A stretch of 64,000 bases of DNA from an uncultured Acidobacteriota bacterium (GTDB lineage Bacteria > Acidobacteriota > CAIWXX01), in contig CAIWXX010000080.1 of assembly GCA_903916735.1 (NCBI GenBank), forward strand, positions 1 to 64,000. The letters are read 5' to 3'. The translations under genes were made by a program, and so were the position numbers. The notes under the pieces are model-generated. The model had not been told where the DNA came from. It made no database searches and worked only from the letters and a program-made list of their open reading frames with translations. Positions 10,688-36,646 of the stretch are shown here, in pieces; within the stretch, counting starts at the first letter, position 1; each line of letters begins with the position of its first letter.

Positions 10688-11851
10688 CTAGTATAGTAGG
10701 AAATGACGGCGAACGCGTGCAAAAACATCGAGCTTCTCACGCCAGCCTCGCTCGATCTCCCTGATGGGGATTTCATTTTCGATCATACGCCGGAGAGATG
10801 AGCTTCCGAGCAGGATATCGATCGGGAGCTTAATGGTTTCGTATTCGTACGGAGGCGGCCGCCAGGCAAATTTCTTTTTATGAATCGCACGGCAGCCCTG
10901 GAGGATTGCAATGGCCGTCAGATAGGGTTTGAAACGCAGGCGGTCGACAACGTGCATTTGAAACCCATGGCAGACTTCGCCGCTGTATGTATTGAACGTC
11001 GGTTTGAAACGCGTCTCGCGGAAGACCAGTCCGGGTAAGCGGCAGCCACGAAGAAATTGCGCGACCCGCGCGGAATCGAGCCAGGGAGCGCCAAAGAGTT
11101 CAAATGGCCTTGTTGTCCCACGGCCTTCGGAAAGATTCGTTCCCTCCAAGAGACACATCCCCGGATAGACGGTGGCAGTGTCGAGCGTCGGCATATTGGG
11201 CGACGGCATGACCCATGGCAGGTTAGTTTCATCGTACCAGTTGTCTCTTTTCCAACCGGTCATTGGTATGACAGTAAGTTTCCCCCGAAGGGAAAGCTGG
11301 TCCTTGAACATCAGAGCAATCTCGCCGACCGTCATTCCATGCCGAGCTGGAAGCGGATGGATTCCGACATAGGAGAGGTGTGTTGGTTCGATGAGGTTCC
11401 CCTCCATTACTTTCCCACCGATAGGATTTGGCCTATCGAGAACAATGAACTCAACATTGGCCTCACCGCACGCGCGAAAACAATAGAGCATGGTGCTGAT
11501 ATACGTGTAATAGCGGCTGCCGACATCCTGCAGATCAAAGAGGAAGAAATCTAGCCCGGCGAGCATCTCAGGCGTGGGCCGTAATTGGTTGCCATAGAGG
11601 CTGTAGACTGGGAGCCTTCGCAAGCGTTCGGATCCCACAGGGCGGAGGGCTTGTTCCGTTCCAGAGAGGCCGTGTTCTGGCGCGAAGACGGCGCGGAGAT
11701 GACAGCCGCGCGCAGTCACTACATCGATTGTATGCTGCAATTCCCGGCTCACACTTGCCTGGTGAGCGAGGAGGCCAAATCGTGCGCCACGGTATTTTCG
11801 AGCGTCATAGCGGCTGAAACGGTCAAGGCCTGTGAGAACAGTAGCTTTCAT
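10688..11851 (-). CDS. namZ: Exo-beta-N-acetylmuramidase (DUF1343/NamZ family)
   Basis: 387 residues matching the DUF1343 (YbbC) family, whose Bacillus member NamZ releases MurNAc from the non-reducing end of peptidoglycan chains. Recognisable blocks are FAPEHGLSG, FDLQDVGSRYYTYI, DRPNPIGG, LPWVMPSPNMPT and YPGMCLLEGTNLSEGRGTT. Some family members are exported. This one begins directly with MKATVLTGLDRF and shows no signal peptide, so a cytoplasmic enzyme acting on imported MurNAc-containing fragments is possible. The ATG overlaps the TGA of the amgK-like gene (ATGA). That position, after MurNAc kinase and uridylyltransferase genes, supports MurNAc production for salvage. Confidence 0.85.
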   Translation of the reverse strand: MKATVLTGLDRFSRYDARKYRGARFGLLAHQASVSRELQHTIDVVTARGCHLRAVFAPEHGLSGTEQALRPVGSERLRRLPVYSLYGNQLRPTPEMLAGLDFFLFDLQDVGSRYYTYISTMLYCFRACGEANVEFIVLDRPNPIGGKVMEGNLIEPTHLSYVGIHPLPARHGMTVGEIALMFKDQLSLRGKLTVIPMTGWKRDNWYDETNLPWVMPSPNMPTLDTATVYPGMCLLEGTNLSEGRGTTRPFELFGAPWLDSARVAQFLRGCRLPGLVFRETRFKPTFNTYSGEVCHGFQMHVVDRLRFKPYLTAIAILQGCRAIHKKKFAWRPPPYEYETIKLPIDILLGSSSLRRMIENEIPIREIERGWREKLDVFARVRRHFLLY

Positions 11852-12855
11852 AAAGTGCGTGCTCCATGCGGCAGTTTGTCAGAATCAGAAAAAACCCCGG
11901 CGCCATCGAGAGATGCTTTGAGCGCAGCCGTTTCAGGCTGGCTGATTCGAGCGAGAACATGTCCTTTTGCCCGCGGAATGAACTTGAGATAATCAGTCTT
12001 CCCACGGATTCGGGCTTGAGAGGCAAAAGTGCCGATCGCTTTTATGCTGCGCTGGACGGCGACGAAATCGAACTGTTTGTCAAAATCATAGGCGCTCGCC
12101 CACAAATGCCGAGTGGATTCGTAAAAGGCGCGTTTGCAGGACGAGACAAGATTGGAATCAAGCAGAACATAGCTGTCACAGAGGAGCGAGACCAGGTCAT
12201 ACAATGGATGCCCCCAGCGAGCGTCCTGCAGATCGACGAGGCTGATATCACCGCCATTCACCATGATGTTGCGACTGTGATAGTCGCGGTGGCAATAGAC
12301 TAGTGGCTCGAAGCTGATGGCATCGAGAAGGCGGTTGAAATCCCTTCGGATAGCGACAAGAGCTTCTTCTTCCAATCGCAGGAACCCCGACAGATAATGA
12401 GTTGCGAAGAAATCCAATTCCCACAAGAGTCGATCGCGGCCGAGGATCGGTGGTTCGTATGGCCCTGCGGTTGTTTGGATAATCCGCCGGTATCCGCCGG
12501 CGCCCACCTGGAGCCTGTTGATCAGCGTCGTCGCCTGATGATAGATGGCGGGATACTCAGAGGCCTGTGCATCGCAGAGATGCTGGTCGCCGAGATCTTC
12601 CATCAGAAGAACACCCAAGGACTCGCATGAACTGATGATGCCGGCAACGGGCAACCCCAAGGATCTGAACAAAAGATGCATATGAATGTGGGAAGCCAGC
12701 CGTTCCTTTTCGGCACAGACCAGGAGAACGGATGAATCTGTGCCCCGTGTAATCCGATAGAATGTGTTCGTCGAAGCATCGCCGGCCAGCGGCTCAACAA
12801 CATAGTCCCCTTCAAGGAGTGCATTCAGCCATGTTGACAATGCGGGTGAAAGCAT
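11848..12855 (-). CDS. amgK: Anomeric MurNAc/GlcNAc kinase (AmgK-like phosphotransferase)
   Basis: 335 residues from the ATG at 12855, which shares one base with the TGA of the murU-like gene. The aminoglycoside-phosphotransferase/choline-kinase fold is clear: PLAGDASTNTFYRI near residues 22-35, catalytic CHRDYHSRNIMV (Asp191, Asn196) and metal-binding VDLQDARWG (Asp208/Asp211). The spacing fits AmgK, which phosphorylates MurNAc and GlcNAc at C1. A longer frame back to 12912 adds Arg/Ser-rich residues with no family match and lies within murU. Its place between murU- and namZ-like genes is the main reason to prefer AmgK over another small-molecule kinase. Substrate is inferred. Confidence 0.85.
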   Translation of the reverse strand: MLSPALSTWLNALLEGDYVVEPLAGDASTNTFYRITRGTDSSVLLVCAEKERLASHIHMHLLFRSLGLPVAGIISSCESLGVLLMEDLGDQHLCDAQASEYPAIYHQATTLINRLQVGAGGYRRIIQTTAGPYEPPILGRDRLLWELDFFATHYLSGFLRLEEEALVAIRRDFNRLLDAISFEPLVYCHRDYHSRNIMVNGGDISLVDLQDARWGHPLYDLVSLLCDSYVLLDSNLVSSCKRAFYESTRHLWASAYDFDKQFDFVAVQRSIKAIGTFASQARIRGKTDYLKFIPRAKGHVLARISQPETAALKASLDGAGVFSDSDKLPHGARTL

Positions 12856-13733
12856 CACAGAGGGTAGGCTCCATCGGGCAGAAAAACTTGATCGTGATGA
12901 ACGCCTCCACACAGCTCAACACCCGTTGTCACGATGCACCGTTCAACGATCGCGCCGCCGCAGATCCGGGCGCCGTCCCAGATGATGGAGTCGATCACGG
13001 TGGAATCATGAATCGAAGAATGATCTGCGGCCAGGGTTTTTGAAGCCAGGAAAACAGGAGTATTTTTCACATAAGAAGAGGGATCTCCAAAATCAAGCCA
13101 GCTCCCGTGAAGCACTTCGCCTCTGATTGCGTGGCCCTTCTTGATAAGCTCAGGATAGATCGTGCGATTGATGTCTGAGAAGCCGCTCGGAAGAAAATTG
13201 AAGATGCGGGTGGAGAGAATATGTATGCCCGTGAAATGGTAGGGAGTCGCTTTTGCTGCCGACGCCGGCAGGCTGGGAGAAAGGATGATTCCATCCTTCA
13301 TATCGACGGCGGAGTAATGCCCTTGGTGAGGGAGAAGGAGCATGGTCGCGAGTGCGCCGGCGCGGCGATGCGATTCAATGGCCTCCTGCAGGTTGAAATC
13401 GAAAAGCGAATCCGCGTTGACCATGATGATGGTTTCTTCTCCGGCGAAACATGATGCGGCGTTTGCAAGTCCGCCGGCGGTCCCGAGTATCTCAGGCTCT
13501 TCGGAGTATGTCACATTCAGACCGATCTGCTGTCCATCCTGAAGTAGCTTCTTAATCGAATCCGGTTTGTAATGGAGATTGACCACGGCATCTGTGACGT
13601 TCTGAGAAGCCAGATGGATCAGCAACCATTCGATGAGAGACTTTGGCCCGACGGGGATGGCCGGCTTGGCGAGCAGGTTCGTGATCGGGCGGAGCCTCGT
13701 TCCAAGGCCTGCGGCCAATACCATCGCCTTCAT
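12855..13733 (-). CDS. murU: Nucleotidyltransferase, MurU-like (MurNAc-1-P uridylyltransferase)
   Basis: 292 residues from the ATG at 13733. The N-terminus MKAMVLAAGLGTRLRP with the following KPAIPV is the nucleotide-binding signature of sugar-nucleotide pyrophosphorylases, and VNADSLFDF carries the metal-binding Asp. MurU makes UDP-MurNAc from MurNAc-1-P. At 292 residues it is longer than Pseudomonas-type MurU. The extra C-terminus (about 235-292) looks like left-handed beta-helix hexapeptides, as in mannose-1-phosphate guanylyltransferases, so nucleotide and sugar are not certain. The frame extends 67 codons upstream into the CYTH gene end, but homology begins at 13733. One-base overlap with the kinase argues for a joint pathway. 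Confidence 0.82.
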   Translation of the reverse strand: MKAMVLAAGLGTRLRPITNLLAKPAIPVGPKSLIEWLLIHLASQNVTDAVVNLHYKPDSIKKLLQDGQQIGLNVTYSEEPEILGTAGGLANAASCFAGEETIIMVNADSLFDFNLQEAIESHRRAGALATMLLLPHQGHYSAVDMKDGIILSPSLPASAAKATPYHFTGIHILSTRIFNFLPSGFSDINRTIYPELIKKGHAIRGEVLHGSWLDFGDPSSYVKNTPVFLASKTLAADHSSIHDSTVIDSIIWDGARICGGAIVERCIVTTGVELCGGVHHDQVFLPDGAYPL

Positions 13734-13824
13734 CAGTGGGCGCCCCCCCACGTGATGGAGAATGGATGCCGCATGTTTGAGCGTCGCCTGCTGAATATCT
13801 GGAAGAAACCTGTCACGATCACTG

Positions 13825-14481
13825 TCAGGAGTCCTGCGAACCGCATGCTTTGCGTTTTGCTTTCCGGGATGCATGCATTGAGTGCAGAGTTGCATTGACT
13901 GCACCAGACTTCTTTTCGGAACTCGATACTCCAAAGACCATGTCCCCCGAATGATTCTTCAAGAAGAGCTCGATATAGCTTTCACGGATGAAGTCTTTGG
14001 GACCAAACCCCAGTCTCCGCGCTTCATGCAGGATTGTCGTCCGATGTCCCTCGATTTCAAGAAAATCGCCGATCGGTGTGTGGTCAAGAGCAGCGACCAT
14101 GCGGCCCTTGATGTACGTGGCCCTGTATTTTTCATAAGCAAAAGTTGGATGCATTCCTATCCGCTGCAGGATCAAATGGAAAGCTCCGGCATCCGATACC
14201 TTTGCTTCGATCTCTTCGCGAGCTTTGACCTGTGGAATATCTTCGCGTGGCCCCTTGTAGGTGAGGATCGATGAGGAGCCATATGTTCTTAGTCGCAAAG
14301 CACACCCGCTTTGACGGAGGCGCATGTCGGTTGTGTCATAGAGTTGATTTATTTCCAACGCCCGGCGTTGAAAAAGAATGAATCCGGACCTTTTCAACCG
14401 TTGCGTAATATCGTCGACCTTCTTGACGGACACTTTGATCTCGACTTCCCGCAGGGATGAATTCCATGTCCGTCGATGCAT
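13825..14481 (-). CDS. CYTH-domain protein (class IV adenylyl cyclase / triphosphatase type)
   Basis: 218 residues. The CYTH tunnel-fold signature EVEIKV at residues 12-17 (ExExK) is intact, followed by LRLRTYG, LTYKGP, KAREEIEAKV and DFLEIEG, which supply the charged residues that bind triphosphates and metal. Family members hydrolyse inorganic or thiamine triphosphate, or cyclise ATP. The last 45 residues form a basic, Cys-poor tail unlike the fold. It lies between the polyprenyl synthase (78 bases away) and the murU-like gene (91 bases), so probably in the same transcript. Which activity it has cannot be told. Confidence 0.85.
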   Translation of the reverse strand: MHRRTWNSSLREVEIKVSVKKVDDITQRLKRSGFILFQRRALEINQLYDTTDMRLRQSGCALRLRTYGSSSILTYKGPREDIPQVKAREEIEAKVSDAGAFHLILQRIGMHPTFAYEKYRATYIKGRMVAALDHTPIGDFLEIEGHRTTILHEARRLGFGPKDFIRESYIELFLKNHSGDMVFGVSSSEKKSGAVNATLHSMHASRKAKRKACGSQDS

Positions 14482-17665: not shown

Positions 17666-17745
17666 AACATGACAGCGCCATGGCCATCCGCAATCCAGCT
17701 CTCCGTCCTCATCCTGAAAGCTGATGACTCATATCCAGGAGTTTC

Positions 17746-18081
17746 ATGATGGACAAAACGACATGCAATGATCGGGCAGTGACCCTGGTGTTGACGACCG
17801 TGGGGACAACAGAAGACGCGGCAAGCATTGCGGCGATACTCGTCCAGGAAAAAATTGTGGCCTGTTGCCAGGCGATGCCCGTGAGATCGACATATCGATG
17901 GAAAGAGAACCTTTGCCAGGAAGCCGAAGTCCTGCTCTTTGCAAAGACAGCGGCTCCAGAGAAAACGGTGGCCCGCATCAAGGAAATACATCCATATGAG
18001 TTGCCGGAAATCATCGTACTGCCAGTAGTCGCCGGCTATGAGCCCTATCTCCAGTGGGTACGCGAGGCCACAGCATTGTAA
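17746..18081 (+). CDS. cutA: CutA divalent-cation tolerance protein
   Basis: 111 residues, the normal length. The family blocks VLTTVGTTEDAASIA, VACCQAMPVRSTYRWKE, ETEVLL-like EAEVLLFAKT and HPYELPEIIVLPVV.G...YL.WV are present. CutA is a very stable ferredoxin-like trimer, linked to copper tolerance in E. coli but with no settled function elsewhere. CAGGAG lies 7 bases before the ATG. It follows the TPR-like gene by 80 bases in the same direction. Confidence 0.95.
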   Translation: MMDKTTCNDRAVTLVLTTVGTTEDAASIAAILVQEKIVACCQAMPVRSTYRWKENLCQEAEVLLFAKTAAPEKTVARIKEIHPYELPEIIVLPVVAGYEPYLQWVREATAL

Positions 18082-18553
18082 GTTGCCTGTGACCGGCACG
18101 CAGGGTCGAGAGACGGCTCTTTTTCTCACCAAGCCGCGTGAGACTTTCTTAATTCACATCATCACAGTCCGGTTTTATCGGAACGACAGGATGGGATAGC
18201 GTCGTCATGATGTGATCCATGATCAGCACTGCTCGTGCCTTCATGAAAGGAGCTCGTCTTCCAAGGATTTCTTCCCGTGTCTGAAAAAAAATAAAAAAAA
18301 TATTTTCCTCCTTCTCCAACGATCCGAATCATTAACCAACATGTTCCTGCCGATCGTGCATGATCGCATGAATCATTCAATTGTTCGGTTGTATGCGAAG
18401 TCTAATTGAATACGTATGCTAATGCCGTAGAACCTTGGAAAACGCTCGAAATTAGCAAAAATCGGCCAAAAACCAGTCCCACTAGATATTGCGTCGTGAG
18501 AGTTCGATTGAACTAAATCTGGTGCTTTTCCATGTGAAAATGCACTTTTTCTG
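18082..18553. other. AT-rich gene-free interval
   Basis: About 470 bases, visibly richer in A and T than the surrounding genes, including an A-run with one T at about 18284-18301. No frame with a ribosome site is found on either strand. No tRNA-like or riboswitch fold was recognised. It ends in the strong promoter of the ATP-grasp operon, so it may hold upstream control sites for that operon. Confidence 0.5.
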
Positions 18554-18582
18554 TTGACAAAGCAGAGTGACGTCCCTATATT
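18554..18582 (+). promoter_or_regulatory. Promoter of the ATP-grasp/GNAT operon
   Basis: Consensus TTGACA (18554-18559), 17-bp spacer, TATATT (18577-18582), 56 bases before the first start codon. It is among the best sigma-70 matches in the window and suggests constitutive or strong expression. Confidence 0.85.
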
Positions 18583-18638
18583 TCGAGATGACATACTGGA
18601 TGTAAGTCCTGTAAGGAAGGAGAACGCCGAGACAACGT

Positions 18639-19670
18639 ATGCGAGTTGGATTCACCTACAACATGAAAAGGGATACCTCTCCAGAAGGAGATGAGCATCC
18701 TCCAAGTACGGTCGGCAGCGACGTATATGCCGAGTGGGACGAGCCGGAGACCATTGAGGCTGTACGGGCTGCCCTCGCAAAAAAGCACATCGTCATCCCC
18801 ATCGAAGCCGACGAACACGCCTTCGACAAACTTCAATCCACACGACCCGAGATCGTTTTCAACATCGCCGAAGGGGCCTACGGCGTAAGCCGTGAAGCGC
18901 AGATCCCCGCGATTCTGGAACTGCTCCGCATTCCCTATACGGGGTCGGATCCGCTGACGCTCGGGATTTGTCTGGACAAGGGGCGGGCCAAGGAAGTGTT
19001 GGCCTTCAACGGGGTGCCGACACCGGGATTTAAAGTTCTGAGTTACGTCAATGGAAACGCCAACGGCCTTCGCTACCCCATGATTGTCAAGCCCCTCTTC
19101 GAAGGTTCTTCAAAGGGGATCTACAATGATTCAGTCGTGAGGTGTACGAAGGAGTTAAAGAGCAAGGTGCAGTGGGTGCTCGACACCTATGGCCAGCCGG
19201 CTCTTGTGGAGCGCTTCCTTGAGGGACGCGAGTTCACAGTCGCCCTGATTGGGAACGGCGATCGTATTCAGGTTCTCCCGATTGTCGAAATCAAGTTTGA
19301 TGCCCTTCCAGAGGGGGCGTCTCCGATCTATTCCTTTGAAGCCAAATGGATATGGGATCGCGAAGACAACCCCCTCAATATTTTCCAGTGTCCCGCCGAT
19401 GTTGACGACACAAACCGCGCCAAGATTGAAGCGATTTGTGTAAAAGCCTATCGAGTCCTTCGCTGCCGCGACTGGTGCCGTATCGATGTGCGCCTAGATG
19501 GACAGGGTAATCCCTATATCATCGAGTTGAATCCGTTGCCCGGGATTTTGCCACGGCCCGAGTGCAACTCCTGCTTTCCGAAGGCGGCACGAGCAGCTGG
19601 AATGGACTATGACACGCTGATGAACACAGTTCTGGAGGTTGCATGCGAGCGTTACGGTATCGGCCTCTAA
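18639..19670 (+). CDS. D-Ala-D-Ala-ligase-like ATP-grasp enzyme, first of a tandem pair
   Basis: 343 residues with the ATP-grasp fold of the D-Ala-D-Ala ligase family. Visible are EIVFNIAEG and IPYTGSDPLTL, the ATP-binding lysine in MIVKP, the GSSKGI loop, VERFLEGREFTVA, and the metal/substrate-binding CRIDVRLD with IIELNPLPG. True Ddl enzymes start with GGxSxE; that motif is missing here (MRVGFTYNMKRD), as is the HGxxGEDG run (EGAYGVSREA instead). The substrate amine or acid is therefore probably not plain D-alanine. It should form an amide or peptide bond using ATP. The 3' end overlaps the second ligase gene by 28 bases. Confidence 0.87.
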   Translation: MRVGFTYNMKRDTSPEGDEHPPSTVGSDVYAEWDEPETIEAVRAALAKKHIVIPIEADEHAFDKLQSTRPEIVFNIAEGAYGVSREAQIPAILELLRIPYTGSDPLTLGICLDKGRAKEVLAFNGVPTPGFKVLSYVNGNANGLRYPMIVKPLFEGSSKGIYNDSVVRCTKELKSKVQWVLDTYGQPALVERFLEGREFTVALIGNGDRIQVLPIVEIKFDALPEGASPIYSFEAKWIWDREDNPLNIFQCPADVDDTNRAKIEAICVKAYRVLRCRDWCRIDVRLDGQGNPYIIELNPLPGILPRPECNSCFPKAARAAGMDYDTLMNTVLEVACERYGIGL

Positions 19671-20719
19671 AGGCCCCCAACTGCGCCATTGTCGCGAACA
19701 AGATCCGCACGGATCTGATGCGGGGAGAGGATCGTGAGTTACTCTCGGAGATCGCCGTCCGTGACGAGGTGACGGCAATCGAGGCCTCTTTGATCGAATT
19801 GGGCTATACGCCCATGATCATCGAGGTGTGGGGCGACCTGGAGGATTTGCTGGCGCAGCTCAGCCGCCGCAAACTCTCATTTGTGTTCAATCTCTGCGAA
19901 TCTCTCCAGGGCGACAGCACTCTTGAGATGTGCCTCCCAGCCGCCCTCGAAGTCATCCGAATCCCCTACACGGGATCGGGTCCCCTGACTCTCGGAATGG
20001 CCCTTTATAAATGGCGCGCCCGGGAAGTCCTGCATTATTATCGAGTCCCTTATCCGCGGTTCGCTTTGCTGTCTGATGTTCCCAAGGAAAAGCCGCGCAG
20101 TGTCCCCTTCCCGATGATTGTAAAACCGAGTCGCGAAGATGGGAGCCTTGGAATTACGAAGGACTCGGTGGTGCGGGATCTCTCGCAGCTCAGAGAGCGA
20201 GTGGATCATGTCACTCGGACGTATTTTCAGCCGGCGCTCGTCGAGGAGTATATCGAGGGGCGTGAGTTCAACGTGGCATTAATTGGTGAGGTTGATCCCG
20301 AGGTCCTGCCGATTTCAGAAATTGATTTCAGCGGGCTCGATCCGCAGCTTCCCCCCATCGTCTCATATGAAGCCAAGTGGAGCGTCAACAGCCCTTACTA
20401 TCTCGGCACGATTCCACGCTGCCCAGCGGAGTTGGATGAGGATGTGGCGGAGCGCATTCGGAAGGTGGCTGTGACCGCCTATCGGGCACTCGGAGTTCGT
20501 GACTATGGACGTGTCGATCTCAGACTCGCCACAGACGGCACTCCCTATGTACTCGAAGTCAATCCGAATCCTGATCTCTCGCCCAAAGCGGGTGTCTGCC
20601 GATCGGCCATGGCTGCCGGCATCACGTATAGTCAACTGATCGGACGGATCGCATCCTTCGCGCTCGCACGGACGAGCAGCTATGAGTATCAGGAAGTTTC
20701 GGCAGTCGGATCGGAGTAG
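19643..20719 (+). CDS. D-Ala-D-Ala-ligase-like ATP-grasp enzyme, second of a tandem pair
   Basis: 358 residues, clearly homologous to the preceding gene (FVFNLCESLQG; IPYTGSGPLTLGMALYKW; MIVKPSREDGSLGI; VEEYIEGREFNVALIG; VDLRLATDG; LEVNPNPDLSP) but well diverged, so an old duplication. The catalytic lysine and the acidic metal ligands are kept. In the omega loop GSSKGI becomes DGSLGI, and the final LPG becomes NPD, which suggests a different acceptor. The N-terminal 55 residues look like a partner or substrate domain. GGAGG lies 4 bases before the ATG, inside the upstream gene. It overlaps the GNAT gene by 38 bases. Confidence 0.87.
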   Translation: MRALRYRPLKAPNCAIVANKIRTDLMRGEDRELLSEIAVRDEVTAIEASLIELGYTPMIIEVWGDLEDLLAQLSRRKLSFVFNLCESLQGDSTLEMCLPAALEVIRIPYTGSGPLTLGMALYKWRAREVLHYYRVPYPRFALLSDVPKEKPRSVPFPMIVKPSREDGSLGITKDSVVRDLSQLRERVDHVTRTYFQPALVEEYIEGREFNVALIGEVDPEVLPISEIDFSGLDPQLPPIVSYEAKWSVNSPYYLGTIPRCPAELDEDVAERIRKVAVTAYRALGVRDYGRVDLRLATDGTPYVLEVNPNPDLSPKAGVCRSAMAAGITYSQLIGRIASFALARTSSYEYQEVSAVGSE

Positions 20720-21152
20720 CATCGAGGGGATTATCCGCGCGACCGGCTTCTTTGCCGAGATGGAGATCGCCGTCGCGCTGGAGCTTCTCGATCTGGCCAT
20801 CCAGAAGCCGGATCAAACCGATTATGAAATCTATGTGTCGGAGAACGTTGAGGGCCTGGTTGGATATATCTGTTACGGACCGACACCATGCACGCAGGGG
20901 ACATATGATCTCTATTGGATCGCGGTTTCACCGGCGGCTCAAGGCAAGGGCGTTGGCGCTCAGCTGGTGGACTTCATGGAAGTGAACCTGAGCGCGTGCC
21001 AGGCACGCAAAGTTGTGATTGAAACGTCATCGCAGCCCTTATACGATGGAACGTGCGCGTTCTATGTGAAACGAGGCTATCATGAAGCGGCCCGGCTGAA
21101 GGAATTTTACAGGCCGGGGGATGACAAAGTCATCTTCATGAAAGATCTTTAA
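20682..21152 (+). CDS. GNAT-family N-acetyltransferase
   Basis: 156 residues with the full GNAT fold. LYWIAVSPAAQGKGVGAQLV carries the acetyl-CoA pyrophosphate-binding QGKGVG, and the C-terminal FYVKRGYHEAARLKEFYRPGDD is typical of small-molecule or amino-acid acetylating members. It starts inside the second ATP-grasp gene, so its translation is coupled to the ligases. The likely job is to acylate the amino group of the ligase substrate or product; this is inference from the operon. A 45-base gap then separates it from the convergent PBP1A gene. Confidence 0.9.
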   Translation: MSIRKFRQSDRSSIEGIIRATGFFAEMEIAVALELLDLAIQKPDQTDYEIYVSENVEGLVGYICYGPTPCTQGTYDLYWIAVSPAAQGKGVGAQLVDFMEVNLSACQARKVVIETSSQPLYDGTCAFYVKRGYHEAARLKEFYRPGDDKVIFMKDL

Positions 21153-21197
21153 TGGCTGACGGCATTCAGGTGTGGGGTGATGTCGCCGACTGTCTGA

Positions 21198-23543
21198 CTA
21201 TTCGGTTTCTTCGTCTGAGGTATCCTGGATAACGGCAGGTATCTTGTGTTCCTCTTCGTTGCAGAACCGATTTGGTTCTGTTCCTCGGATGAAAGTTTCG
21301 ACAATCGTGTCGCGGCAGCCGGGAGAAGCGAGGAATCCAGTGAGCCGGTCGACGCGGACTGTGACAACACCGGGTGGAACCGGAAAATTTTCCACGGGTT
21401 TGCTTTTCAGGACCTGCCCGAAGAAATCGATCCAGATTGGGAGAGCGGCGTGCGCGCCAACTTCGCCGTGGCCCAGGGTCTTCTTGGTATCGAAGCCGAC
21501 CCAAACGCCGGCCACGAGTGATGGCGTGAAGCCGATGAACCAAGCATCCGAGTAGTCATCGGTGGTGCCGGTCTTGCCGCCGAGCGGCCGTTTGAGGACG
21601 CGCGCGGCTGTGGCTGTCCCGCGATCGATAACCCCCCGCATCACGTTCAGTGTAACGTAAGCCGTATCGGCCGAGACAACTTCGTGAGCATCCAGCTGAC
21701 TTTCGTAGAGAATCGATCCCTGGCGATCTTTGATGGACCGAATGAATTTGGGCGTGACGCGGACTCCCTGGTTGGGAAAAGCCGAGAACGCCGACGCCAT
21801 TTCCATGAGCGTCACTTCGGATGTGCCAAGTGCCAGGGAAAGATATGGATGGAGCGGGGTCGTGATACCAAAGCGGCGTGCATAGTCCACAGCTTTTTCG
21901 ACGCTAATCCTTTCAAGCAGCCGGGCCGTCGGTATGTTCCGGCTTTGCTCCAGCGCTCGGCGCAATGTGACGAGTCCCTTATATTTTCCATCATAGTTAT
22001 GCGGCGTCCATGGCGTGCCGGTCCATTTGTCGAAGAAAGTGACAGGCTCGTCGAGGAGTAGGTTGGTGGGCGGGATGCCGTTGTCAAATGCCGCGCAGTA
22101 GATAAACGGCTTGAAGGCGGATCCAACCTGTCGCATTGCCTGAGTCGCGAGGTCGAACTTGCTGACGTTGTAATCGTATCCGCCGACCAGAGCCTTGACT
22201 TCCCCGGTCGCCGGCTCGATGGCGATGAATGCCCCTTCCACAAGCGGGACCTGTTCGAGAGTCAACGTGCAGGTGAGGGTTTTCTCTTCGCGGCTTGTGA
22301 CGAGGAAAGGAGCGATGTCGCCCACTTTGAGAACCAGTCGGAGGCTGCTTCGCCAGGTCCAGCGGATGCCATTGAGATCGATCGTGCCTGTATAGCTGCC
22401 GATCCGGATATGCGCCAACTTATCGGAAACATCGAGAACAAGACCGCGGCGAATATCTCCGATATCGAACGGCTGATCCCAGTCAGCATCATGATAATTA
22501 TCGAGCTCGATGCCTTGCTTCACCACATTCTCGGTGCTTTTCCTAAGCCCCTGACGCTTGTCGAGGTCGCGGAGCCCCTTCCGGAGAGCTTTCACAGCGG
22601 CCACCTGCATGTCCATGTCCAGAGTCGACTGCACGATCAGGCCTTCGTGATAGAGCCTCTGCGTTCCGAATTTTTCTTCGAGGAATTTCCGGATCTCTTC
22701 ACTGAAATAGGGGCAGAGTGAATCTTCCAGCTGTAAGCGCGCCAGCGCGATCGGCTCGCACTGATCCTTCTTGTATTCCTGGGCGGTGATATACCCCTCT
22801 TCTCTCATCCTCCAAAGAACGTGGTTTCGGCGTTCGAGTGCCCGTTTGGGGTTGGAGAGCGGCGAGAAGTTGGTGGGTGACGCAGCAATACCCGTGATCA
22901 TTGCCGCTTCGGGAACAGTGAGTTCGTTTGTATGCTTCCCGAAATAAAACTCAGCAGCGGCTTCAACTCCGTAAACACCATGGCCGAGATAAATCTGATT
23001 GCAGTAGAGCGTCAGGATTTGTTCTTTCGTATAATTTTTTTCGATCTGGAGAGCCAGCATCCCTTCTTCGATCTTGCGCCGATATGTCTGCTGCGGTGTC
23101 AAAAAGAGCATTTTGGCGAGTTGCTGCGTGATCGTCGATGCTCCTTCGACGACATGCCCGGCCCGTATATTTTTAATGAAGGCTCGAGTAATCCCGATCG
23201 GATCCACACCCCAGTGCGTGAAGAAGCGTGGGTCTTCGGTTGCGAGGAGAGCGTTCATAAGCGTTTTGGAAATATTATCGTACCGAATGAGGATTCGGCG
23301 CTCCAGAGCGAATTGGCCGATGACGGAACCATCATCAGCGAGAATTTCCGTGATGAGCGATGGGTGATAGTCCTCGATCGCCTGTACGCGCGGCAGCCCG
23401 CTTTGATAGGCAAGAAAAAACCCGGCTAGAGATCCGACCGAAACCATGGCCGCGAAGGCCAGGATAATCAGGGCATATTTAAAGAAGCGCTTACCTGGAA
23501 GCCACTTCCGCGCATCTATTTTCGCCACGCGGATCCGAAGCAT
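21198..23543 (-). CDS. mrcA: Bifunctional penicillin-binding protein 1A
   Basis: 781 residues. Short cytoplasmic N-terminus, one membrane anchor (about 22-45), glycosyltransferase 51 domain with catalytic ATEDPRFFTHWGVDP (Glu103) and GASTITQQLAK, then an inserted beta-rich (OB-like) region and the transpeptidase domain with SAFK (Ser475, Lys478), SRN and KTGTT. It polymerises lipid II and cross-links peptidoglycan in the periplasm. Length is normal for class A PBPs. No strong ribosome site precedes the ATG; a GTG six codons in (at 23525) is an alternative. Upstream lies degraded DNA, so its promoter is not obvious. Confidence 0.95.
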   Translation of the reverse strand: MLRIRVAKIDARKWLPGKRFFKYALIILAFAAMVSVGSLAGFFLAYQSGLPRVQAIEDYHPSLITEILADDGSVIGQFALERRILIRYDNISKTLMNALLATEDPRFFTHWGVDPIGITRAFIKNIRAGHVVEGASTITQQLAKMLFLTPQQTYRRKIEEGMLALQIEKNYTKEQILTLYCNQIYLGHGVYGVEAAAEFYFGKHTNELTVPEAAMITGIAASPTNFSPLSNPKRALERRNHVLWRMREEGYITAQEYKKDQCEPIALARLQLEDSLCPYFSEEIRKFLEEKFGTQRLYHEGLIVQSTLDMDMQVAAVKALRKGLRDLDKRQGLRKSTENVVKQGIELDNYHDADWDQPFDIGDIRRGLVLDVSDKLAHIRIGSYTGTIDLNGIRWTWRSSLRLVLKVGDIAPFLVTSREEKTLTCTLTLEQVPLVEGAFIAIEPATGEVKALVGGYDYNVSKFDLATQAMRQVGSAFKPFIYCAAFDNGIPPTNLLLDEPVTFFDKWTGTPWTPHNYDGKYKGLVTLRRALEQSRNIPTARLLERISVEKAVDYARRFGITTPLHPYLSLALGTSEVTLMEMASAFSAFPNQGVRVTPKFIRSIKDRQGSILYESQLDAHEVVSADTAYVTLNVMRGVIDRGTATAARVLKRPLGGKTGTTDDYSDAWFIGFTPSLVAGVWVGFDTKKTLGHGEVGAHAALPIWIDFFGQVLKSKPVENFPVPPGVVTVRVDRLTGFLASPGCRDTIVETFIRGTEPNRFCNEEEHKIPAVIQDTSDEETE

Positions 23544-33307: not shown

Positions 33308-36300
33308 TTATTGCTTAAATGGGATGTCGACGGGCACCCAAACTTTTACCCGCTTTCCGCTCTTCATGGCCGGCTGATAGGTCCATCGGGTAACGGCTTT
33401 CTTGGCGGCTTCGTTGAGCACGGCCAGACTTCCGGAATCCCCCGAGAGAACCTTAATATCGATAACACTGCCGGTCTCGGAGATCAGTATGCTGAGCTTT
33501 ACGGTTGCTTGAATATTTGCCCGACGTGCGATCTCAGGATAAACAGGAAGATTGCGGTTAGCAGGAACCGGCCGAGAATCCACCTGGGAGATCTGAACGA
33601 GATCTCCCTCTTTCACCTGAGCTTGCTGCTGTTGAAGCTTCGTGGCTTCTTCCTCTTTTCGGAGTCTCTCGGCTTCCGCCGCGGCGGCTGCAGCCTTCGC
33701 TTCATCTTCAGCCATTTTCTTATTTTCTTCTTCAATTCGCTGCTTTTCCAACTCGGCTTGCTTACCGGCTTCAGCGGCTGCCTTGGCTTCGGAGTCCTTG
33801 CGCTGCTGCTCGGCGAGAAGCGCCTTCTGTCTATCTTCTTCCAGTTTCTTGAGGTGTTCCTCTTCGGCTTTCTTCTTAGCAGCGAGTTCTTCTGGTGTTG
33901 GAGTTGCAACGGTTGTTGTTGGTAGAGTTGGCTGAGGTGTGGTTATTGGCGGTGTCGTCACTGGTGGCGGAGTCGGCGTGGTGTTTGTGACTGGTGGCGG
34001 CGTTTGAGTCGGAGCTACTGTTCTGCCTTTGAAATAGTATATCCCCGCGATAGCAATCACAATGATCGCGATAATAGCTCCAATAATTCCTATCCGGCGA
34101 TTTTTGACCTGCTTATACCCTGTATTTACAGCCGGATCCATCACCGACTTGAAAGCCAATTCCGGTTCGCGTGGTTTGCTGACCTTGGGTTCCTTCGTCG
34201 GCCCCGTTGGAGCTTGCGTGACAGCCTTTTCTGCGGCAGCGATTACCTTGGGGGGTGGAACTTTTATTTCAGGCTTTTCAGGCGGCTTTTCTACACGAAC
34301 CGCAGGTTCTGCGGGCTTTTGGATGATGGTGGATTTACGAGGAGGCTCGAGGAGTATCCCCCGGGCTTTCATGTCGGCAGAATAGAGCCTGAACATGAAT
34401 TCCGAGAGGGTTGTTGTTGATGGGCGCAGGTGAACGGTCTCGATGTAGTTTTCCAGCGTTTTCTGCATCTCGCTGGCGCTTGAGAATCGTTCATCCGCTT
34501 TCGGCTTAAGAGCCCGCAGGATCACTTCTTCAAACGGCTTGGGGAAATCGGCCTTAACCGATGATGGTGGGATCACTTTGCCGTTCCGAACAGCTTCGAG
34601 TGTTGACATCTCACTGTCGCCCAGGAAGAGCTTGCGTCCGGTCGTGACTTCAAAGAGGACGGACCCCAGTGAGAACTGGTCGCTCCTTTGATCGATGCTC
34701 TTCCCCCAGGCCTGTTCGGGGGACATGTAGAGGATTTTACCCTTTAGGGCGCCATGGGTTGTGTGATGTACCTTGGATGCCGCTTTGGCAACGCCGAAGT
34801 CGACGAGTTTCACATCCCCTTCATAGGAAATCAGAATGTTTTGGGGACTGACATCGCGATGGACGATGTTGAGCGGCTTCTGGTTGTAATCAAGTTTGCG
34901 GTGCGCATATTCAAGCGCTTCGCAGACCTTGATGCCGATAAAGGCGGCGAGATCATAAGGCATTGTCTGATCGCGCCGTTCGAGATCTTTGATGATGGCC
35001 CGTAGATCCTTCCCCTGGACAAATTCCATTGCAATGAAGAAGGAGTCTTCGATGCGACCGAGATCATAGATATGGACGATGTTCGGGTGGTTGAGCTGTG
35101 CAGCGACCTTAGCCTCGTCGATGAACATTGTCACGAATTCTTCATTATCGGAGAGATGCGGCAAAATTTGTTTGATGGCCAGTATTTTTTCAAACCCCTC
35201 GGGGCCGCTTCGCTTCGCCTTAAAGAGCTCCGCCATTCCACCGGTTGCGATTTTTTCCAGCAGAACATAATCCCCAAACTTCACATGCGCGCCGATGAGT
35301 TTTTCTTCGCGCCGAGGGACTTCAGGAGGCTTTGCCTCCGGGCGTGGGGCTTCAACCTTCATCTCAACCCTTGGCGGCTCGATCTTCGGTTCGGGTCGAG
35401 GCGTTTCGATTTGGGGCTCGACTTTCAGAGCCTGGGCCTTTTGAGGTTCAGGTTCAATTGTAACCCGGGGCTTCTTAACCGGTTCGGGTTGAGGTGGAGC
35501 AACGTCAACTATTAGAGAATGCGGCGTGATGACTTCGACTTGCGGTGGTGGTGGAGCATCGGGCTCGGGCTGCTTGATCGGAGGCGGCTCTTTGGCAACC
35601 GCAGGAGGCGGTGTTGGCGGCACGACCACTGGAGGTGTCGGTTTCTGGGGCGCATCCACTTTCGGTGCTGATGGTCTAGCAGTGCGCGGGCGCCCGCCGA
35701 AATCTAGGCTCAGTCCTGAGAGCGTCTCTTCGAGTTTCCTATCGAAATCAGACTCAGGCTTTTTGGAAACCGGAGGCGGGGGTACAGCCTTCTTAATTGC
35801 GTGATTGAGTTTGCTGATTTCTGTTGCGGGATCGAGCTTCGGTATCGCCCTTGTTCGCGGCGGCTCTGCTTCTGGCGGCGTTGGCACCTTGGGGACTGGC
35901 TTTGTTTCGACTAGCGGTGGAGGAAGCGGCGGCGGCGGCTCAACTGCCACTATCGGCGCGGGAGGTTCAACCTTGACTTCCTGGGGAGGAGCCATTGGCT
36001 CCGCAGGGGCAGCCTTGGGCATTGGAACGCCTTCAACGCTCTCAATCACATCCGCAAATATGTCCTCGGAAGTAACAAATTTATCCGGAGGCTGTTTGGG
36101 TTCCGGGTTGGGCGTCGTTTTCTGTTTATCGCGCTGCAGAGATGCCAGTAAATCGGCTCTCTTGATGAAGGGCATTGTCCTATCCTGTTTAAGCTCAGGA
36201 AGGATATCTGCCAGGGATTTCTCTTTAATTAGAGAGACAGGCTTTGTAATGACCGGCTTGTCTTTCTTGATGTTGAGGAGCTTGAAAATTGTATCTGTCA

Positions 36301-36646
36301 GCTCCTCTTCCGCATACGGCTTTTCAAAATAGGCACGCGCACCGCATGAATGAATCGCTTCATTCCGATATTTGCTTCCTTTGTACACTGCCGTCACGAT
36401 GATGACAGGCATATCCTTGCCTTCGGGGCTCTGTGTAATTTGCCGGCAGACATCAAAGCCGTGGATTTTGGGCAGCATCGGGCTCATCACGACCAGATCC
36501 GGACGCTTTTCAAAGAATTTGGAAAGCGCTATCGAGCCGTCTGTTGCCGTGTCAATGGTAAAGCCGAGCCCCTCCAGGTAGCTCTTCATGGAGCTTAACC
36601 CTTTGGGCTCGTAATCGACAAGAAGAATTGTTTTGTTCTGCATCAT
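33308..36646 (-). CDS. Pseudo-receiver / Ser-Thr kinase / TonB-C-terminal fusion protein
   Basis: 1112 residues. Order: receiver-like domain (1-125); Pro-rich linker (about 170-448); Ser/Thr kinase (450-735) with ATGGMAELF loop, Lys492, Glu511, HRDVSPQN (Asp598) and DFG (Asp616); second Pro-rich linker; membrane segment (851-871); Pro/Thr stretch; Lys/Glu/Ala coiled coil (918-1012); TonB/TolA-type C-terminal domain (1030-1112). The kinase should be active. The receiver keeps Asp11, Thr85 and Lys109, but the phosphoacceptor Asp is Ser55 (VVMSPMLP), so it cannot take phosphate in the usual way. The kinase faces the cytoplasm and the TonB-like domain the periplasm, linking a cytoplasmic signal to the envelope. 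A near-consensus promoter lies upstream. Confidence 0.92.
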   Translation of the reverse strand: MMQNKTILLVDYEPKGLSSMKSYLEGLGFTIDTATDGSIALSKFFEKRPDLVVMSPMLPKIHGFDVCRQITQSPEGKDMPVIIVTAVYKGSKYRNEAIHSCGARAYFEKPYAEEELTDTIFKLLNIKKDKPVITKPVSLIKEKSLADILPELKQDRTMPFIKRADLLASLQRDKQKTTPNPEPKQPPDKFVTSEDIFADVIESVEGVPMPKAAPAEPMAPPQEVKVEPPAPIVAVEPPPPLPPPLVETKPVPKVPTPPEAEPPRTRAIPKLDPATEISKLNHAIKKAVPPPPVSKKPESDFDRKLEETLSGLSLDFGGRPRTARPSAPKVDAPQKPTPPVVVPPTPPPAVAKEPPPIKQPEPDAPPPPQVEVITPHSLIVDVAPPQPEPVKKPRVTIEPEPQKAQALKVEPQIETPRPEPKIEPPRVEMKVEAPRPEAKPPEVPRREEKLIGAHVKFGDYVLLEKIATGGMAELFKAKRSGPEGFEKILAIKQILPHLSDNEEFVTMFIDEAKVAAQLNHPNIVHIYDLGRIEDSFFIAMEFVQGKDLRAIIKDLERRDQTMPYDLAAFIGIKVCEALEYAHRKLDYNQKPLNIVHRDVSPQNILISYEGDVKLVDFGVAKAASKVHHTTHGALKGKILYMSPEQAWGKSIDQRSDQFSLGSVLFEVTTGRKLFLGDSEMSTLEAVRNGKVIPPSSVKADFPKPFEEVILRALKPKADERFSSASEMQKTLENYIETVHLRPSTTTLSEFMFRLYSADMKARGILLEPPRKSTIIQKPAEPAVRVEKPPEKPEIKVPPPKVIAAAEKAVTQAPTGPTKEPKVSKPREPELAFKSVMDPAVNTGYKQVKNRRIGIIGAIIAIIVIAIAGIYYFKGRTVAPTQTPPPVTNTTPTPPPVTTPPITTPQPTLPTTTVATPTPEELAAKKKAEEEHLKKLEEDRQKALLAEQQRKDSEAKAAAEAGKQAELEKQRIEEENKKMAEDEAKAAAAAAEAERLRKEEEATKLQQQQAQVKEGDLVQISQVDSRPVPANRNLPVYPEIARRANIQATVKLSILISETGSVIDIKVLSGDSGSLAVLNEAAKKAVTRWTYQPAMKSGKRVKVWVPVDIPFKQ

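Follow-up and report, generated by a model that had tools for sequence, protein, structure and literature searches.

Layout of the locus

The window, i.e. the whole 64,000-nucleotide stretch of Acidobacteriota DNA that we analysed, carries three intact and overlapping open reading frames on its forward strand. These are LIG1 (18639–19670; 343 aa), LIG2 (19643–20719; 358 aa), which overlaps LIG1 by 28 nt, and GNAT (20682–21152; 156 aa), which overlaps LIG2 by 38 nt. Pfam assigns Dala_Dala_lig_C to LIG1 at 126 bits and to LIG2 at 107 bits; the third frame carries GNAT domains. An earlier sequence-only reading had described this locus as two ATP-grasp ligases and a GNAT enzyme overlapping by 28 and 38 bases, which the coordinates and Pfam assignments bear out. 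The promoter and the AT-rich upstream region that it had placed ahead of the operon are likewise found. Specifically, a promoter-like site (TTGACA-17 nt-TATATT, 18554–18582, forward strand) agrees with the consensus at 11 of 12 bases, an identification by consensus match alone in a scan that accepted sites of at least 9/12, about 0.9 of which are expected by chance in the stretch scanned. The intergenic gap 5' of LIG1 is 557 nt long and has a GC content of 41–47%, compared with 53–60% within genes. An Rfam search of positions 17700–21400 returned no riboswitch (e.g. lysine) or other known RNA family, and no regulatory RNA or riboswitch was found beside the module in nine relatives.

Two other regions of the window, both on the reverse strand, are of separate interest. 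At 10688–13934, a NamZ exo-muramidase, an APH-family kinase and a nucleotidyl transferase are encoded consecutively and resemble a MurNAc recycling (AmgK/MurU-like) operon, while 33308–36646 encodes a 1112-aa protein with an unusual combination of response-regulator, Ser/Thr kinase and TonB C-terminal domains.

LIG1 and LIG2 compared with D-Ala-D-Ala ligase

Judged from their sequences, neither LIG1 nor LIG2 is a D-Ala-D-Ala ligase (Ddl). The window's genome encodes a canonical Ddl separately, on contig C120 (PF07478, 240 bits), with the motifs GGRSGE and HGPYGEDG; both GGxSxE and HGxxGEDG are absent from LIG1 and LIG2. Among the NCBIfam Ddl models listed, every LIG1 and LIG2 score falls below the model cut-off, with NF002378 giving the best scores, 189 and 152 bits (cut-off 243), and TIGR01205 giving 158 and 116 (cut-off 245.65). 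Identity to solved Ddl enzymes is at most 28%. In a phylogenetic tree, LIG1 forms its own group (support 95/90), as does LIG2 (93/85, with a few single relatives within), and both lie far from Ddl.

An alignment of 50 LIG1 and 47 LIG2 sequences against E. coli DdlB, in which the N-terminal region around E15 is not reliably alignable, separates what is kept from what is changed. The equivalents of DdlB K97, K144, K215, D257, E270 and N272, which serve ATP and Mg binding, are kept in essentially all 97 sequences (the only deviation at E270 is Asp in three LIG2 sequences), and so is that of Arg255, which is catalytic in Ddl. In the window's LIG1, the invariant ATP/Mg residues are K114, K151, E191, K236, R281, D283, E296 and N298. 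By contrast, DdlB His63 is Glu in 97/97 sequences (E78 in the window's LIG1), and Tyr216 is Trp in 47/47 LIG2 and 42/50 LIG1. Ser150 is retained in 46/50 LIG1 and is Ala in 44/47 LIG2, a family in which Ser150, Gly276, Ser281 and Leu282 of Ddl have mostly become Ala, Asp, Ala and Gly; in the window's LIG2, E86, W246, D311 and G317 stand at Ddl H63, Y216, G276 and L282. The acceptor loops are altered relative to Ddl and also unlike each other, as the earlier reading had noticed along with the retained ATP lysine and acidic metal ligands and the missing motifs. The Glu shared at His63 suggests, from the alignment, that both ligases may recognise a donor amine at a different position, like that of a beta-amino acid.

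AlphaFold predicts the Ddl fold for both proteins (mean pLDDT 91.1 for LIG1 and 90.5 for LIG2), and all matches listed in the structure comparison of these models are Ddl or D-Ala-D-lactate ligases. LIG1 and LIG2 have in common with Ddl (PF07478/TIGR01205; E. coli DdlB, PDB 1iow) the ATP-grasp fold, the ATP lysines, the Mg ligands and Arg255, and differ from it in the motif, the two substitutions and the acceptor loop described above.

This kinship in fold and family is what a role in the cell wall would have in its favour, with the ligases making a variant dipeptide or cross-bridge. A PBP1A-like gene is also convergent with the GNAT gene, and the MurNAc-recycling-like genes lie about 5–8 kb upstream of LIG1. 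However, the genome has its canonical Ddl, the residues that recognise D-Ala are altered in both ligase families, and the recurrent neighbour elsewhere is a lysine 2,3-aminomutase rather than cell-wall genes (see below). We consider a cell-wall role highly improbable.

Conservation of the three genes

A scan of genome contigs yielded 43 loci, and in 40 of these both ligases are adjacent. The order LIG1-LIG2-GNAT on one strand is found in 43 of the 45 loci with a complete trio, the window's locus among them. Trio loci span about nine phyla, and the titles of the host records include Acidobacteria, Bacteroidetes, Ignavibacteria, Kryptonium, Gemmatimonadetes, Planctomycetota, Deltaproteobacteria, Desulfuromonas, Aminicenantes and Auribacterota. 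The three-gene set proposed from the window alone is thus a recurrent one. With this recurrence and the separate canonical Ddl, neither of the outcomes named in advance as refuting the earlier reading has occurred. Within one sampled phylum, a LIG1 relative is present in 104 of 247 genomes.

Several candidate partners and members were set aside. A RecG-like helicase and other genes recur upstream in the loci of Bacteroidota and Gemmatimonadota, but as these neighbours differ from phylum to phylum, their synteny was put down to chance. ATP-grasp genes on rhizobial plasmids are single relatives without the trio, phage matches are weak and Ddl-like, and ORFs of about 650 aa in L019, L021 and L029 are methyltransferase-ATP-grasp fusions of a distinct family.

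A lysine 2,3-aminomutase as fourth partner

Clustering of the neighbouring genes reveals that a protein of some 380 aa repeatedly adjoins the GNAT gene. This is a KamA-family radical SAM enzyme, with lysine 2,3-aminomutase as its best match and PDB 2a5h as its solved relative. The pathway had been drawn with three genes; these do co-occur widely, but a fourth conserved enzyme, the KamA-type lysine 2,3-aminomutase, had been missed. In the 45 trio loci KamA lies downstream in 28 and upstream in 5, and it is mostly upstream in a second set of loci from another phylum, the one sampled with 247 genomes, so the linkage has been kept through different arrangements.

Members of the KamA family can also act on arginine or glutamate. 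The trio-linked enzymes retain D293, D330 and K337 of 2a5h, which in the Clostridium enzyme make contact with PLP and the side chain of lysine, and they score far higher on the AblA model than on the EpmB model. Judged by these scores and residues, the KamAs here are probably of the lysine type.

The association extends to whole genomes. With KamA called at E ≤ 1e-70 in the 247-genome sample, in a table that takes in the 98 of 104 ligase-positive genomes with listed places, KamA is present in 85/98 ligase-positive genomes vs 52/149 others (Fisher P = 2e-16, kinship ignored). It lies less than 400 bp from a ligase in 58 genomes, and every genome with tandem ligases (29/29) has it. Within the phylum of the window itself, 10/11 trio genomes have KamA compared with 5/49 others (P = 4e-7, kinship ignored). 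Thirteen loci are mostly without a linked KamA in view, and the genomes of 12 of them contain a KamA match. KamA is missing from G025 (trio present, 410 contigs) and from G070 (two ligases, GNAT not found).

The window's genome has its KamA on another contig (C9), unlinked to the trio; at 539 bits, it passes the lysine 2,3-aminomutase model TIGR03820 (cut-off 525.4). In the KamA tree, unlinked copies from other trio genomes fall within clades of linked ones, and the window's copy forms a separate branch with that of a family relative, a placement that is weakly supported.

Such unlinked copies, and the few trio genomes without KamA, could mean that the trio is independent of beta-lysine and that its acetylated peptide is built from ordinary amino acids, with KamA linked to it for some other reason. 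Against this stand the adjacency in those 58 genomes of a single phylum sample, the placement on either side of the trio, and the second, dedicated KamA of genomes in which AblB is present too; we regard independence from beta-lysine as very unlikely. Since the conserved set includes a lysine 2,3-aminomutase, the product of the trio is probably based on beta-lysine and not part of the cell wall. The variant cell-wall peptide, which the sequence-only reading had offered as its other option, gained no support from the conserved neighbourhoods.

Known users of beta-lysine

AblB and EpmA are the usual users of beta-lysine. The AblA/AblB pathway to N-epsilon-acetyl-beta-lysine also pairs an enzyme of the lysine 2,3-aminomutase family with a GNAT acetyltransferase. 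The trio module differs from it in that two ATP-grasp ligases are added, its GNAT does not belong to the AblB family (no match to TIGR03827 at E ≤ 0.001), and AblB is nearly always absent, i.e. it is found in 0/11 and 1/40 trio genomes. Beta-lysylation of EF-P by EpmB/EpmA likewise uses beta-lysine from a KamA-family enzyme, according to PMC2821294. There, however, the ligase is LysRS-like, whereas the trio ligases are ATP-grasp enzymes and the linked KamAs are AblA-like rather than EpmB-like. In the passages of that paper on KamA-family genes, these are found clustered with ablB or efp and ligases go unmentioned, and an AblAB osmolyte has been predicted in Pelobacter (PMC3543383).

In the window's genome, AblB (TIGR03827) has no match, and the best match to the EpmA model is a 506-aa frame that scores below the cut-off and was taken as LysRS. 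Among the beta-lysine users searched for, the trio is thus the only one present. Across the 247-genome sample, AblB is above the cut-off in 8 genomes, compared with 58 in which KamA adjoins a ligase. Among the KamA genomes of this phylum, AblB occurs in 2/85 ligase-bearing genomes vs 6/52 others (P = 0.053), which is only suggestive of a depletion. In a relative without the trio (G016), KamA and AblB are grouped with a transporter-like gene. Two genomes (G084 and G277) each hold a KamA next to AblB and a separate one next to the trio. EpmA is above the cut-off in three trio genomes (G003, G018 and G031) and just below it in a fourth, and the ligase-linked KamA is the sole copy found in them; as such, KamA could serve EF-P there, or perhaps both pathways.

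A proposed pathway

The closest solved relative of GNAT, matching over nearly its whole length, is PDB 2r7h, a "putative D-alanine N-acetyltransferase", where "putative" is the depositors' own word. LIG2 and GNAT form a single reading frame at two loci (L154:4218–5858 and L158:9089–10621), and these fusions support a direct coupling of ligation and acetylation.

We think it reasonably probable, from gene families and residues, that the four enzymes would together make a small acetylated beta-lysine peptide, perhaps a compatible solute. In this pathway, KamA, assigned to its family by sequence and encoded on another contig in the window's genome, would convert L-lysine to beta-lysine. LIG1 and LIG2 would each use ATP to turn a carboxylate into an activated acyl phosphate, in the manner of Ddl, and form one amide bond apiece, giving a di- or tripeptide-like compound with beta-lysine. 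GNAT would then acetylate a free amine of a building block or of the product. The result would be a small cytosolic N-acetyl-beta-lysine peptide, whose most plausible role is that of a compatible solute or protectant, replacing N-epsilon-acetyl-beta-lysine or alongside it. Here the substrates, the product, the order of the steps and the biological role are what we infer, whereas statistics show the link to KamA. The small N-acylated peptide-like product named in the earlier reading is still the best class of answer, and its account of the ligases as non-canonical is supported as well.

A comparable logic is found in the pathway to the osmolyte NAGGN (N-acetylglutaminylglutamine amide), an acetylated dipeptide solute produced by a GNAT together with an ATP-grasp enzyme. 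The NAGGN ligase belongs to another family, and the NAGGN pathway is not known to involve KamA.

The same genes could instead make a secreted secondary metabolite (an antibiotic, metallophore or signal) with beta-lysine as a building block, as in streptothricin-type compounds. ATP-grasp ligases, a GNAT and an unusual amino acid are a typical set for such products, comparable operons are described in PMC2922099, and on a Thioflavicoccus plasmid 2,3-diaminopropionate genes and KamA accompany a single related ligase. Yet a LIG1 relative in 104 of 247 genomes, the recurrence of the same four genes, and clustered neighbourhoods that show neither a transporter nor a resistance gene as a recurrent member fit a core metabolite better, and we find a secondary metabolite rather unlikely. 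The broad distribution and lack of a recurrent transporter also speak for a core metabolite of the cytosol, which might be a compatible solute, rather than for a secreted compound, although this is the weakest step in our argument.

In a few loci, the genes around the module point in another direction, i.e. to a polyamine-like molecule: an amine would receive beta-lysine, and acetylation and its reversal would serve storage or regulation. These loci add a protein of the histone-deacetylase/acetylpolyamine-hydrolase family, a GNAT-arginase fusion, agmatinase-like genes and an HTH-cupin regulator. LIG2 is also changed at positions with which Ddl holds the carboxylate of the acceptor (S281 is Ala, L282 is Gly), and its Asp at Gly276 might suit a cationic acceptor. 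However, the accessory genes are confined to those few loci, and none of the enzymes of polyamine biosynthesis accompanies the module consistently, making a polyamine-like product quite unlikely in our view.

Generalizing the acetylated beta-lysine peptide beyond the window is more tentative. It is conceivable, if somewhat doubtful, that many phyla make a widespread and undescribed group of such intracellular peptides with KamA, two Ddl-derived ligases and a GNAT, and use them as core protectants or compatible solutes. A literature search found no description of the KamA-LIG1-LIG2-GNAT set in the mainly open-access papers that it covered, subscription papers being mostly outside its scope. A 2009 survey of amidoligases might, reportedly, mention the four-gene set. 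If the proposal is true, the lysine 2,3-aminomutases of several phyla gain a dedicated downstream pathway, and a new class of small molecules is predicted that could be sought directly by mass spectrometry in cultivable hosts. A likely misannotation as D-alanine--D-alanine ligase in many genomes would also be corrected.

Further gene associations

Some neighbourhoods of the ligase module hold additional gene fusions and families. Histone-deacetylase-family proteins adjoin it at L157:9440–11185 and L158:6358–8076, the latter also with a GNAT domain, and a GNAT-arginase-family fusion lies near the module at L157:11100–12590. On the Thioflavicoccus plasmid pTHIMO01 (L083:2467–7948), the single ATP-grasp ligase is accompanied by diaminobutyrate transaminase, SbnA and ornithine cyclodeaminase-like genes and faces KamA; this is likely a related small cluster.
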